Positions 31,004 to 35,180 of a stretch of DNA of 64,000 bases are shown here, piece after piece (position 1 is the stretch's first letter; each line of letters opens with the position of its first letter). Made by a program: the position numbers and the translations under genes. The stretch comes from Desulfobacteraceae bacterium (GTDB lineage: Bacteria > Desulfobacterota > Desulfobacteria > Desulfobacterales > Desulfosalsimonadaceae), in the NCBI GenBank assembly GCA_011389935.1, contig JAABTJ010000003.1:1-64000 (forward strand), written 5' to 3'. Under the pieces are notes generated by a model. The model ran no database searches. It was not told the DNA's origin and worked only from the letters and a program-made list of their open reading frames with translations.

Positions 31004-31984
31004 CTACCCGCCGGATCGGGACACCAGGCAGAAAAACGAATGCCGTGGCCCGGATGTTGACTGGTCTTCCTGCATCGGGAGATCCGTGAACGATTCAAGC
31101 GCTTTTTCAGAAGACACATCGGGTACTGCGCAGACCTCAAGGAAAAATCCGTCTTCGCAAGCGCGATCCAGGTATGAAAAAATCTGCGCACCCGCTTTTT
31201 CCCCCGCCCACGGTTGGTCGGCGATGGACCGAAATCCACCGGAAAGCGCCTGGGCTGCCGTTTCCGGATCGCCGGCAGCATCTGTCGTCTTCAACAACTG
31301 GACCATTGACGGAAACCGCTCGAACAGGGCCTCCATGACGGCGCTGCTGTCGGTAACATAAATATCCGGCGGGGCCGAATCATTTTTGCAGAGAAGTGCC
31401 CATGCCGCGAGACGCGCTTCGGTCATGACGGCGCATGCATCATATGTTGCAGCGCCGGCGCCCACGCCAAAAGGTTCGCCCGTTGCGAGGTCTTCCCCCC
31501 GGAGCTGCTCAAACAGCTGTTTTGAAGCATAATCTGTTTTTTCAAGGCTTTGCCGGATTTCCGATTCCCGGAGATCGAATTCCTGGGCCAGCTGCAAAAA
31601 CATGCGCGCATTGACCACAGGGTCTGTTTTCGGGGGGGCTTCCCTGGAAACGCCGTTTTTGCGCTTCAGCACCTCGGTCCGGATTTCTGCGGCAAAATCC
31701 TGGTTGTAAAAGCCCTCACCGGCCAGTTGGTTAAGCCGCAGCGCATCCTTCTGGTGGACGTTCCCCCAGGTGCTGTACGCCCTGCATAATTCAAGGAGAT
31801 ACGCCTCGTTTCCGAGTACCGGGTGCCTGAGTTCGATGGCGGATGCTTCGCAAAGATGCGCAAGCACCGCTGGCGTCTGGTCCATTATCGGCTGATAAAG
31901 AACGAATCGTCCCAGGCGCCGGTTTATGGCCGCAGCAGCTTCCTGCGTGATGAACGTGGATGGGAAAAATATTTTTTTTATCAT
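31004..31984 (-). CDS. Conserved-looking protein of unknown function, coupled to cysM-cysS fusion
   Basis: 326 residues, not recognised. Predominantly helical, with no signal peptide, membrane segment or classical catalytic motif visible. The N-terminus (IKKIFFPSTFITQEAAAAINRRLGRFVLYQPI) looks structured; the middle has FLQLAQEFDLRESEIRQSLEK, then an AAWALL-rich helix. Its ATG overlaps the stop of the upstream fusion gene (ATGA), the arrangement of a tightly coupled pair, so its function is probably tied to that protein. Possible roles range from adaptor to regulator, and none can be supported from sequence alone. Confidence 0.75.
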   Translation of the reverse strand: MIKKIFFPSTFITQEAAAAINRRLGRFVLYQPIMDQTPAVLAHLCEASAIELRHPVLGNEAYLLELCRAYSTWGNVHQKDALRLNQLAGEGFYNQDFAAEIRTEVLKRKNGVSREAPPKTDPVVNARMFLQLAQEFDLRESEIRQSLEKTDYASKQLFEQLRGEDLATGEPFGVGAGAATYDACAVMTEARLAAWALLCKNDSAPPDIYVTDSSAVMEALFERFPSMVQLLKTTDAAGDPETAAQALSGGFRSIADQPWAGEKAGAQIFSYLDRACEDGFFLEVCAVPDVSSEKALESFTDLPMQEDQSTSGPRHSFFCLVSRSGG

Positions 31985-34278
31985 TTTTGATGATCAACCT
32001 TTTTGGTGTCTTGGACGTGGATGCCCATGTTTTTCAATTGTTCACGGATACGGTCCGCTGCCTCGAAATCGCCCGCGCTTCTGGCCGCAGCCCGCTCTTC
32101 CACAAGCTTTTGTACCTCCGGCGGATATGCTGCCGCCTGTTCAAAATCGAATATCGAAACGACCGAATCAATCCCTTTAATGGTTGTAAAAATTTTTTCC
32201 GCATCGGCTTTGCCGATCCGGTTTTCATCGATCAGGCGGTTGATGCGCTTGATCATGTCAAAAAGGGCGGCCATGGCGCGGGGCATGTTCAGATCGTCAT
32301 CCATGGCGCTCACAAATCCCTGCCGCAAATCATAGAGCAGCTGATCAATGTCAGGAAATTCCATGCCCCCTTTGACCTGGGCGAGAGACCGGACAAAGGC
32401 GTCGAGCCGTTTCAAGGCGCTTTTCGACTGTACGAGGCGGTCTTCGGAGAAGCGCACGGGTTTCCGGTAATGCGCGGCAACGAGCCAGTAGCGAATTTCA
32501 CGGGAAAAATACCCCTTTTCCATCAGCGATTCAAGGGTCGGCAGGGCATTGTCGCCGGATTCACCGCCTTCCTCTTCTGTCAGAACGCGTTCGCAGTGGA
32601 CCCAGCACCGGGCAAGGGGCTTGCCCGTAACGGCGCGGGCAATGGCCCGCTCGTTTTCATGATGCGGGAAAATCAGCTCCCGTGAACTGGCATGAATGTC
32701 AAAGGTTTCCCCCAAATATTTCATGGACATTGCCGCGCACTGGATATGCCAGGAAGGGCGGACGTTTCCCCACGGCGTCTTTACGTAAAATCCCCGCTTC
32801 AATTCGGCGAGCCGCGCCCGCTTGAGAAGTGTGAAATCCCTTGGATTGTTCTTTTCATATTCATCCAGGTCGACCGTCGCCCCCAGTTTTATTTTATCGA
32901 GGTCTATCCCGGAGAGCTTCCCGTAGTCTTCAAACGCGCTGATATTAAAGTAAAGGGACCTCAGCTTTTCATAGGCATATCCCTTTTCATAAAGCTTTCT
33001 GGCGATCGCCACCATATCATCCACATGTTCCCCGGCACGGGGATAATGGTCCGCCGGACGGATATTGAGCGCAGCCAGGTCGGACTTGAAAAAATCAATG
33101 TATTTGCCCGTAAACGCTTCCAGCGGCACGCCGGCGGCTTCGGAGGCCGCGATGGTCTTGTCGTCGATATCGGTGATGTTCATTGCATGGTTTACCCGCA
33201 GTCCCCGGTATTCAAGATACCGGCACAACAGGTCCGAAAACAGAAAACGCCTGCATTCGCCCAGGTGGATGCGCCGGTCAACCGTGGGGCCGCAGGTATA
33301 GACCGTTGCGCTTCCCTCCCGCAGCGGCTCAAAGGGAATCTTTGACCGGCTCATGGTATTGTACAGATAAATATCGGCTTTCTTTTTTTCGGCAAACAGC
33401 GTGGTGCTCAGATATCGTTCACCGCTGTCCGGAAATATCACCACGATGGTGCCTTTCTCCATCCTTTCCGCTTCCCGTGCGGCAATGAGCATGGCCGCGC
33501 CGCTGCTCATCCCCACAAACAACCCCTCTTCCTTGCCGAGGCGCCGGGTCATATCGAAGGCCTCTTCATCATCGACATTGATCTTAACATCCAGCAGGCT
33601 TTTATCGTAAAGCTCCGGCCGATACGCCTCCTTCATGTTTTTCAGCCCCTGGAGCTTGTGCCCCAGATACGGCTCCACCCCGATCACCTGTATCGCCGGA
33701 TCATATTCGCGAAACCGCCGCGAGCATCCCATGAGGGTGCCCGTCGTCCCCATGGTGGCGACGAATGTATCGAACGCGCCACCCGTCTGCTCGATGATTT
33801 CCAGGGCTGTCGTGTTGTAATGGGCCATCCAGTTCGCCGGATTGTTGTACTGGTCGGTCATGAAAAAACGCTCCGGGGCTTCCCTTACCAGGTTGTATAC
33901 CTCCTCGATGGCCCCATCGGTCCCCAGGTGCCCCGGCGTAAGCATGATTTCCGCCCCCCTGGCCGCGAGTATCTGCCTCCGTTCCATACTTACCGCTTCG
34001 GACATTGCCAGAAGGAGCCGGTACCCCTTTATGCTGCAGATCATGGCAAGGCCGATGCCGGTATTGCCGGAAGTGGCCTCGATAACCGTCTTGTCAGGGG
34101 TAAGCTGGCCGGAGCGCTCCCCTTCCTCGATCATAGCCAGCGCCGGGCGGTCCTTGACGGAGCCGCCGGGATTGAGATATTCAATTTTGGCGTAAATCGT
34201 CACGTTGGGATTCGGGTTCAGCCGCCTGATTTCCACAAGCGGCGTGTTTCCGATGGCCTCCAGTATGGAATGGGTCAT
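31981..34278 (-). CDS. Cysteine synthase (CysM type) fused to a CysRS-like domain
   Basis: 765-residue fusion. Residues 1-292 form a PLP cysteine synthase with Lys42 in NPGGSVKDR, the TSGNTG substrate loop (69-74), the GTTGT phosphate loop (177-181) and FPDSGERYLST, the last two resembling CysM more than CysK. Residues about 303-765 align along a whole cysteinyl-tRNA synthetase including the anticodon-binding helices. Zinc ligands are kept (Cys329, Cys514, His539, Glu543). However HIGH reads HLGE (338-341), and the KMSKS region is replaced by acidic EEEGGESGDN (568-577). Aminoacylation is therefore doubtful. Preceded by repeat copy D and coupled to an unknown gene downstream. The start at 34278 follows a GGGAAAG site. 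Confidence 0.93.
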   Translation of the reverse strand: MTHSILEAIGNTPLVEIRRLNPNPNVTIYAKIEYLNPGGSVKDRPALAMIEEGERSGQLTPDKTVIEATSGNTGIGLAMICSIKGYRLLLAMSEAVSMERRQILAARGAEIMLTPGHLGTDGAIEEVYNLVREAPERFFMTDQYNNPANWMAHYNTTALEIIEQTGGAFDTFVATMGTTGTLMGCSRRFREYDPAIQVIGVEPYLGHKLQGLKNMKEAYRPELYDKSLLDVKINVDDEEAFDMTRRLGKEEGLFVGMSSGAAMLIAAREAERMEKGTIVVIFPDSGERYLSTTLFAEKKKADIYLYNTMSRSKIPFEPLREGSATVYTCGPTVDRRIHLGECRRFLFSDLLCRYLEYRGLRVNHAMNITDIDDKTIAASEAAGVPLEAFTGKYIDFFKSDLAALNIRPADHYPRAGEHVDDMVAIARKLYEKGYAYEKLRSLYFNISAFEDYGKLSGIDLDKIKLGATVDLDEYEKNNPRDFTLLKRARLAELKRGFYVKTPWGNVRPSWHIQCAAMSMKYLGETFDIHASSRELIFPHHENERAIARAVTGKPLARCWVHCERVLTEEEGGESGDNALPTLESLMEKGYFSREIRYWLVAAHYRKPVRFSEDRLVQSKSALKRLDAFVRSLAQVKGGMEFPDIDQLLYDLRQGFVSAMDDDLNMPRAMAALFDMIKRINRLIDENRIGKADAEKIFTTIKGIDSVVSIFDFEQAAAYPPEVQKLVEERAAARSAGDFEAADRIREQLKNMGIHVQDTKKVDHQK

Positions 34279-34523: not shown

Positions 34524-35180
34524 TTAATAATACGTGGTCATATTATGAGCTGGCAAAACACTTCCCAGATGCGCAAGGATGGCTTCCTTCACCTCCTCCG
34601 GCGGGAGCGCGGCGTCAATGACCTTTATGCGCTGCGGTTCGGCGCCGGCCAGGGCCAGGTAGCCCTGCCTGACCTTTTCGTGAAACAGGATCTTCTCGTG
34701 TTCGAATCGGCTTTGTGCCGTGTCCCGCATGCCGGCGTCGATTTCCTTCCAGGCGCGCATCAAACCGGTTTCAGGGGGGAGATCCAGCAGAAACGTGATA
34801 TCCGGAGATATATCCTTCAGCACCAGCCGGTTGAGACCCGATATAATCGCGGCATCGATCCCCCTGGCCGCCCCCTGGTACGCGATTGTCGAATCAAAGA
34901 AGCGGTCGCATATGACAATTTTTCCGCCGTCAAGGGCCGGCTTGATCGTTTCGCTGACATGCTGCGCGCGGTCAGCGGTATACAGAAGCAGTTCCGCCAT
35001 GGCATCGAGCATGTCATGATCCCGGTCAAGAAGGATCTGCCGGATCTTTTCGCCGATTTTCGTGCCGCCGGGTTCCCTGGTGACCGTGCACGGGTAGCCG
35101 TTTTTTTGCAGATATCCGGATATATGTGCAATCTGGGTGGTCTTTCCCGAGCCCTCGATCCCCTCCATGGTAATAAACAT
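34524..35180 (-). CDS. tmk: Thymidylate kinase
   Basis: Phosphorylates dTMP to dTDP. 218 residues. The P-loop is EGIEGSGKTTQ, followed by the DRY-like TREPGGT segment, the conserved CDRFFDSTIAYQGAARG and the LID region. All motifs are intact. It begins 9 bp after the YhaM-like gene, so the two form an operon. The ribosome-binding site is distant, and translation may depend on the upstream gene. Ordinary nucleotide metabolism. Confidence 0.95.
   Translation of the reverse strand: MFITMEGIEGSGKTTQIAHISGYLQKNGYPCTVTREPGGTKIGEKIRQILLDRDHDMLDAMAELLLYTADRAQHVSETIKPALDGGKIVICDRFFDSTIAYQGAARGIDAAIISGLNRLVLKDISPDITFLLDLPPETGLMRAWKEIDAGMRDTAQSRFEHEKILFHEKVRQGYLALAGAEPQRIKVIDAALPPEEVKEAILAHLGSVLPAHNMTTYY

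Follow-up and report, generated by a model that had tools for sequence, protein, structure and literature searches.

The first 64,000 nucleotides of contig JAABTJ010000003.1 (assembly GCA_011389935.1) of a Desulfobacteraceae bacterium, referred to below as the window, contain a gene in which a cysteine synthase is fused to a module resembling cysteinyl-tRNA synthetase (CysRS). The features of this fusion gene, all on the minus strand, are listed here with the source of each assignment.

31981..34278 (-): fusion gene, cysteine synthase and CysRS-like module, 765 residues (open reading frame translation, Pfam, NCBIfam, AlphaFold model)
33385..34278 (-): cysteine synthase (CysK/CysM) domain, residues 1-298 (Pfam, homologue alignment)
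31999..33372 (-): CysRS-like module, residues 303-760 (Pfam, NCBIfam, alignment, fold matches)
33292..33294 (-): zinc ligand C329, E. coli C28 (alignment)
33256..33267 (-): HIGH remnant HLGE, residues 338-341 (homologue alignment)
32737..32739 (-): zinc ligand C514, E. coli C209 (alignment)
32650..32664 (-): zinc ligands H539 and E543 in HHENE, E. coli H234 and E238 (alignment)
32548..32577 (-): KMSKS position, reading EEEGGESGDN, residues 568-577, of low confidence in the model (alignment, AlphaFold model)
31999..32127 (-): anticodon-binding domain (CysS_C), residues 718-760 (Pfam, alignment, residue retention)

Pfam recognises PALP at residues 6-284 (242 bits), tRNA-synt_1e at 316-619 (264 bits), DALR_2 at 655-701 and CysS_C at 718-760, all above the cut-off. 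Among the NCBIfam models, TIGR01136 (cysKM) scored 357.6 bits against a cut-off of 344.15 and TIGR00435 (cysS) 366.5 bits against a cut-off of 340, while the fusion stayed below the narrower equivalog cut-offs for CysK and CysM, and the MshC model reached 183 bits, under its cut-off of 485. Naming by profile is a trap here, as the protein passes the NCBI cut-off for a cysteine--tRNA ligase though it lacks the catalytic motifs. In the AlphaFold model (pLDDT 85.8, pTM 0.58), the N-terminal part matched CysK structures in the PDB, and the C-terminal part matched 8qhp best (TMt 0.91), together with 1u0b, the CysRS-tRNACys complex (472 columns); the loop at the KMSKS position (570-576) and the linker (288-300) were modelled with low confidence. 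Translation, profile searches and fold matches thus confirm the fusion of 765 residues described in an earlier note on this DNA, whose residue numbers are also right (K42, TSGNTG, GTTGT, C329/C514/H539/E543, HLGE 338-341 and EEEGGESGDN 568-577).

Of the genomes sampled, 126 of 146 in the order (Desulfobacterales-like) and 156 of 395 in the phylum Desulfobacterota have a full-length homologue of the fusion, the order count including a few that are cut at contig ends; chance would not give such a recurrence. Many sulfate-reducing bacteria share the fusion. Their identity to the window copy ranges from 44 to 89%, the most distant lying at 44-46%. All named matches belong to the Desulfobacterota and come from Desulfobacterales, Desulfobulbus, Desulfocapsa, Desulfopila, Desulforapulum, Desulfoluna, Desulfobacula, Desulfotignum, Thermodesulfobacterium, Caldimicrobium and Smithellaceae. 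Some genomes carry two diverged copies, namely G133 (L068, L069), G107 (C38, C44) and G170 (C16, C58).

The synthase half carries the pyridoxal phosphate (PLP) lysine and the TSGNTG and GTTGT loops, and K42 and SGNTG are invariant in 110/110 fusion homologues, which bears out the earlier description of this half as intact; an active cysteine synthase is, as far as sequence can tell, the best explanation. SGNTG is part of the loop that binds the free alpha-carboxylate in the CysK/CysM family. With this family (TIGR01136) the fusion shares the PLP lysine and both substrate-binding loops, and it differs in its synthetase-like C-terminal half and in a substrate loop that reads HKxQGLKN (Q-G and K-N invariant), whereas the host genome's own CysK has HKIQGIGAG. 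The QGLKN loop, in place of QGIGAG, marks a CysK subfamily that includes the fusion and further sequences (L149, L152-L164, L307-L313). Standalone members occur in Nitrospirota, Planctomycetota, archaea and some order members without the fusion, sometimes adjoining nifU-iscS or iscS (L149, L309, L312), and this type may use a sulfur donor or substrate different from that of ordinary CysK. No linkage to CysE or NifS was found in the fusion loci. On a Moranbacteria contig (L163:99-2806), a cysK of the QGLKN type and a cysS with HIGN and KMSKS lie side by side as separate genes, possibly an unfused version of the same arrangement.

In the CysRS-like half, the window copy keeps the first histidine of HIGH (H338), whereas the fourth position is changed from H40 (E. 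coli) to E341. In none of the 70 order members examined is HIGH or KMSKS still intact, so that the motif loss reported from the window copy is confirmed by the homologue comparison proposed at the time. For residue retention, 110 fusion modules, from 108 complete fusions and two others, were compared with 32 canonical CysRS. The fourth HIGH position (E. coli 40) is His in about 5% of fusions and never in KMS-bearing homologues, K269 is retained in 2%, the second KMSKS lysine is gone from nearly every fusion and GGG 225-227 is mostly lost; canonical-invariant positions of the ATP site are retained in 0-71% of fusions, with a median of 16% in the KMSKS region. Outside the order the motif states are graded, some homologues having HLGN or HLGL together with KMSRS (L086, L099, L102) and others having lost both motifs, and one group is also without zinc ligands (L112-L117, L120, L123). 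The window copy has all four zinc ligands as well as W205, and all four are kept in 54 of 70 order members. Across the fusion homologues, at least one ligand is lost in 35/110 and two or more in 16, and cysteine binding therefore cannot be the shared function of the family. The earlier proposal that the zinc pocket still selects cysteine retains its basis in this copy, with its intact ligands, but does not hold as a family feature.

The anticodon-binding domain behaves differently. Retention of canonical-invariant residues is bimodal, with a median of 1.00 in the anticodon domain against 0.16 in the KMSKS region, and six of seven anticodon-domain positions are kept in at least 96% of fusions. 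The window copy keeps R729, A732, R733, F738, D742, R745 and D757, which correspond to R423, A426, R427, W432, D436, R439 and D451 of E. coli. Every one of the 108 complete fusions has the identical residue at R423, D436, R439 and D451, either R or K at R427, and an aromatic residue at position 432; the 16 fusions that have lost two or more zinc ligands are no exception. In the E. coli CysRS complex (1u0b), G34 of tRNA-Cys forms hydrogen bonds with R427 and D436 and a stacking contact with W432, and its water network includes R423 (PMC12684709). We infer that anticodon recognition outlives the cysteine and ATP sites in the fusion family.

Selection was assessed by the ratio of nonsynonymous to synonymous substitution rates (dN/dS), which is 0.03-0.08 for the catalytic part of the CysRS-like module and 0.05-0.08 for the CysK part. 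These values indicate that the module is under strong purifying selection, with dN/dS as low as that of the synthase. The C-terminal part of the fusion changes faster overall, and for this reason the invariant anticodon positions stand out, although dN/dS for the short anticodon stretch is noisy. In the phylogenetic tree, canonical CysRS form one clade (support 100/93) with the fusions on the other side, which is compatible with a single origin of the fusion, and its well-supported branches require that the KMS label changed three times or more. The conserved motif loss across the order and the low dN/dS rule out that the window copy alone has decayed.

The host assembly (2.84 Mb, 58 contigs, 94% complete) also contains a canonical cysS adjoining ispF (C5:52598-54043, L001), in which both HIGH and KMSKS are preserved; on C30, separate from the fusion, lies an iscU/nifU-iscS-cysE-cysK-metY cluster (names from sequence). 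Since canonical cysS and cysE-cysK are encoded elsewhere, the fusion is an extra protein and not the only CysRS or cysteine synthase of the cell. The search for a second, intact cysS suggested by the earlier note was thus successful, and the fusion as sole CysRS is ruled out; another CysRS-type gene was found in all 47 genomes searched, whether fusion-bearing or not. In genome G314, the canonical cysS is seemingly split by a frameshift (G314:C2:129281-130649) and the fusion copy is the most diverged, which points to a faulty assembly or else to an unusual case. The idea of a second, specialised tRNA-Cys was given up, a single tRNA-Cys(GCA) having been found in the host assembly. No Rfam match to a riboswitch or T-box was found in the 28-38 kb region of the window.

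The reading that we favour, with belief and doubt in about equal measure, is an active cysteine synthase whose C-terminal CysRS became a regulatory module binding tRNA-Cys. The CysRS-like module would still grip tRNA-Cys through its GCA anticodon without charging it, as the retained anticodon-reading residues suggest, and occupancy by tRNA-Cys would change synthase activity via the linker or the packing of the domains. The module would probably tell uncharged from charged tRNA-Cys, and cysteine would be made as uncharged tRNA-Cys builds up; both the regulation and its direction are proposed because of the fusion architecture, the direction being a guess. Where the zinc pocket survives, as in the window copy, the module could recognise free cysteine or the cysteinyl end as well. 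Of the two kinds of sensing raised by the earlier note, that of tRNA-Cys is thus the best reading, given the anticodon residues kept, while that of cysteine falls short as a family-wide property. Several points weigh against regulation by tRNA-Cys. The fusion is absent from about 14% of the order genomes, some of them incomplete, and is therefore not essential, some of the genomes scored as fusion-less being fragmentary assemblies. The homologues are related, and the retention counts are thus not independent samples. Part of the residue retention could have structural reasons, as A426, R439 and D451 are without a cited contact role, and tRNA might have no effect on the synthase. Furthermore, KMS(R)-like loops are kept in 19 of 40 homologues outside the order, some of which could still activate cysteine.

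The main rival is a cysteine sensor in the manner of HisZ, in which free cysteine in the zinc pocket would feedback-inhibit the fused synthase and tRNA would be irrelevant. The four zinc ligands and W205 of the window copy are in keeping with it, as are the complete ligand sets in 54/70 order members, and HisZ may serve as an analogous precedent for a synthetase paralogue that provides amino-acid feedback (PMC9437257). However, zinc ligands are lost in 35/110 fusions, two or more in 16, and the anticodon residues stay. A cysteine sensor would also leave the kept anticodon domain unexplained, whereas MshC and CysRS* are both without one, and we regard it as unlikely, though deserving attention. 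That the former CysRS is a structural passenger which merely stabilises the synthase would agree with the several independent losses of the catalytic motifs, but is quite unlikely in view of a dN/dS as low as that of the synthase and the selective retention of anticodon residues. The retained tRNA-reading residues and the intact synthase would also suit channelling or tethering, the module holding tRNA-Cys or meeting CysRS so that new cysteine is made beside the charging machinery; as the module and CysRS would then be competitors for one tRNA anticodon, we consider this decidedly improbable.

It is very unlikely that the module is a divergent active enzyme which activates cysteine and charges tRNA-Cys or, like MshC, a small amine. 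Several homologues outside the order with HLGN/HLGL and KMSRS would allow for it, and the window copy exceeds the NCBI cysS cut-off, but KMSKS is gone in this copy and in 70/70 order members, and position 40, K269 and GGG 225-227 are rarely or largely not retained. In addition, MshC is without an anticodon domain and the fusion has one. Cysteine synthesis on the tRNA, with the PLP domain acting on an aminoacyl-tRNA-Cys held by the module, is highly improbable, even though SepCysS shows that cysteine formation on tRNA-Cys is possible (PMC5424206). A canonical CysRS is present in the genome, which speaks against this route. Moreover, the SGNTG loop for the free alpha-carboxylate is invariant in 110/110 fusions, whereas an esterified amino acid has no free carboxylate.

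Two neighbouring genes accompany the fusion gene in the window.

31004..31984 (-): downstream gene of 326 residues, overlapping the fusion gene by 4 bp, without Pfam or NCBIfam match (open reading frame, profile searches)
34524..35180 (-): thymidylate kinase (tmk), conserved upstream neighbour (named from sequence)

The 326-residue protein belongs to an unannotated family with an N-terminal FPFT-type motif, present in 108/395 phylum genomes and often located beside tmk (alignment A3). Its fold gave no significant match in the PDB (best Foldseek E 0.54), and VIA-align reached a Z of at most 4.3, to pantothenate synthetases. The gene follows the fusion gene in most order members and lies directly upstream of it in two other families (L098, L104), and 101 of the 108 genomes also have the fusion (Fisher p 3e-44, a test that ignores phylogeny). 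The earlier note had counted this coupled gene as evidence for a dedicated system. This idea was dropped, as in five order genomes (L315, L316, L317, L320, L321) the gene directly adjoins tmk although the cluster has no fusion, and the family has varied surroundings elsewhere in the phylum; a strong match to this gene was present in 9 of 16 order genomes scored as fusion-less. We therefore treat it as a syntenic neighbour of the fusion, not a proven partner.

A third CysRS-like gene in the host genome encodes 417 residues with HIGN and KMSKS but without an anticodon domain (L003:1435-2688; G000:C31:15495-16721), and is similar to the CysRS* described from Desulfobacterales or to a ligase of the MshC type. 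A search of the 10 kb around it turned up no tRNA gene. The host genome also has a tRNA-Sec-type gene (G000:C1:52660-52753, 76.5 bits, RF01852).

Compared with canonical CysRS (TIGR00435; E. coli 1u0b), the module shares the fold, the zinc ligands of the window copy and the anticodon-binding residues, but has lost the fourth HIGH position, GGG 225-227 and KMSKS, is joined to a synthase, and coexists with a canonical CysRS. MshC, the mycothiol cysteine ligase, is likewise a CysRS paralogue with another role, but keeps the adenylation chemistry and is without the anticodon domain, the reverse of the fusion. CysRS* is an extra CysRS paralogue in the same bacterial group (PMC9437257); it has no anticodon domain, unlike the fusion with its CysS_C, and its substrate is a selC-like tRNA. 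SepRS/SepCysS also tie cysteine synthesis to tRNA-Cys (PMC5424206), but they are unrelated proteins and synthesis takes place on the tRNA. HisZ, a HisRS paralogue and regulatory subunit of ATP phosphoribosyltransferase, resembles the fusion in being synthetase-derived, catalytically dead and linked to the pathway that makes its own amino acid (PMC9437257). However, HisZ is a separate subunit of the other synthetase class and is described as mediating inhibition by free histidine, whereas the fusion is covalently joined and keeps its anticodon-reading residues; the likeness lies in the way of working only, without shared HisRS homology.

The HisRS-like domain of GCN2 senses uncharged tRNA, and GCN2 is like the fusion in the role proposed here, a degenerate synthetase domain with tRNA sensing and control of a fused enzyme, but it is a eukaryotic kinase and HisRS-derived. 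In bacteria, sensing of tRNA charging is known at the level of transcription and translation, and to our knowledge no enzyme of amino-acid biosynthesis has been described that tRNA controls directly via a synthetase-like domain. Neither such an enzyme nor an earlier report of a cysteine synthase-CysRS fusion was found in the open-access papers searched. That a biosynthetic enzyme is controlled allosterically, phylum-wide, by its own cognate tRNA through a fused dead synthetase is a tentative proposal, which we are somewhat readier to doubt than to accept. Because a single gene encodes the fusion, which is conserved and found in many genomes, the idea is open to ordinary biochemistry. If true, the fusion would be a protein counterpart of the tRNA-sensing leader RNAs, acting on enzyme activity and not on gene expression.

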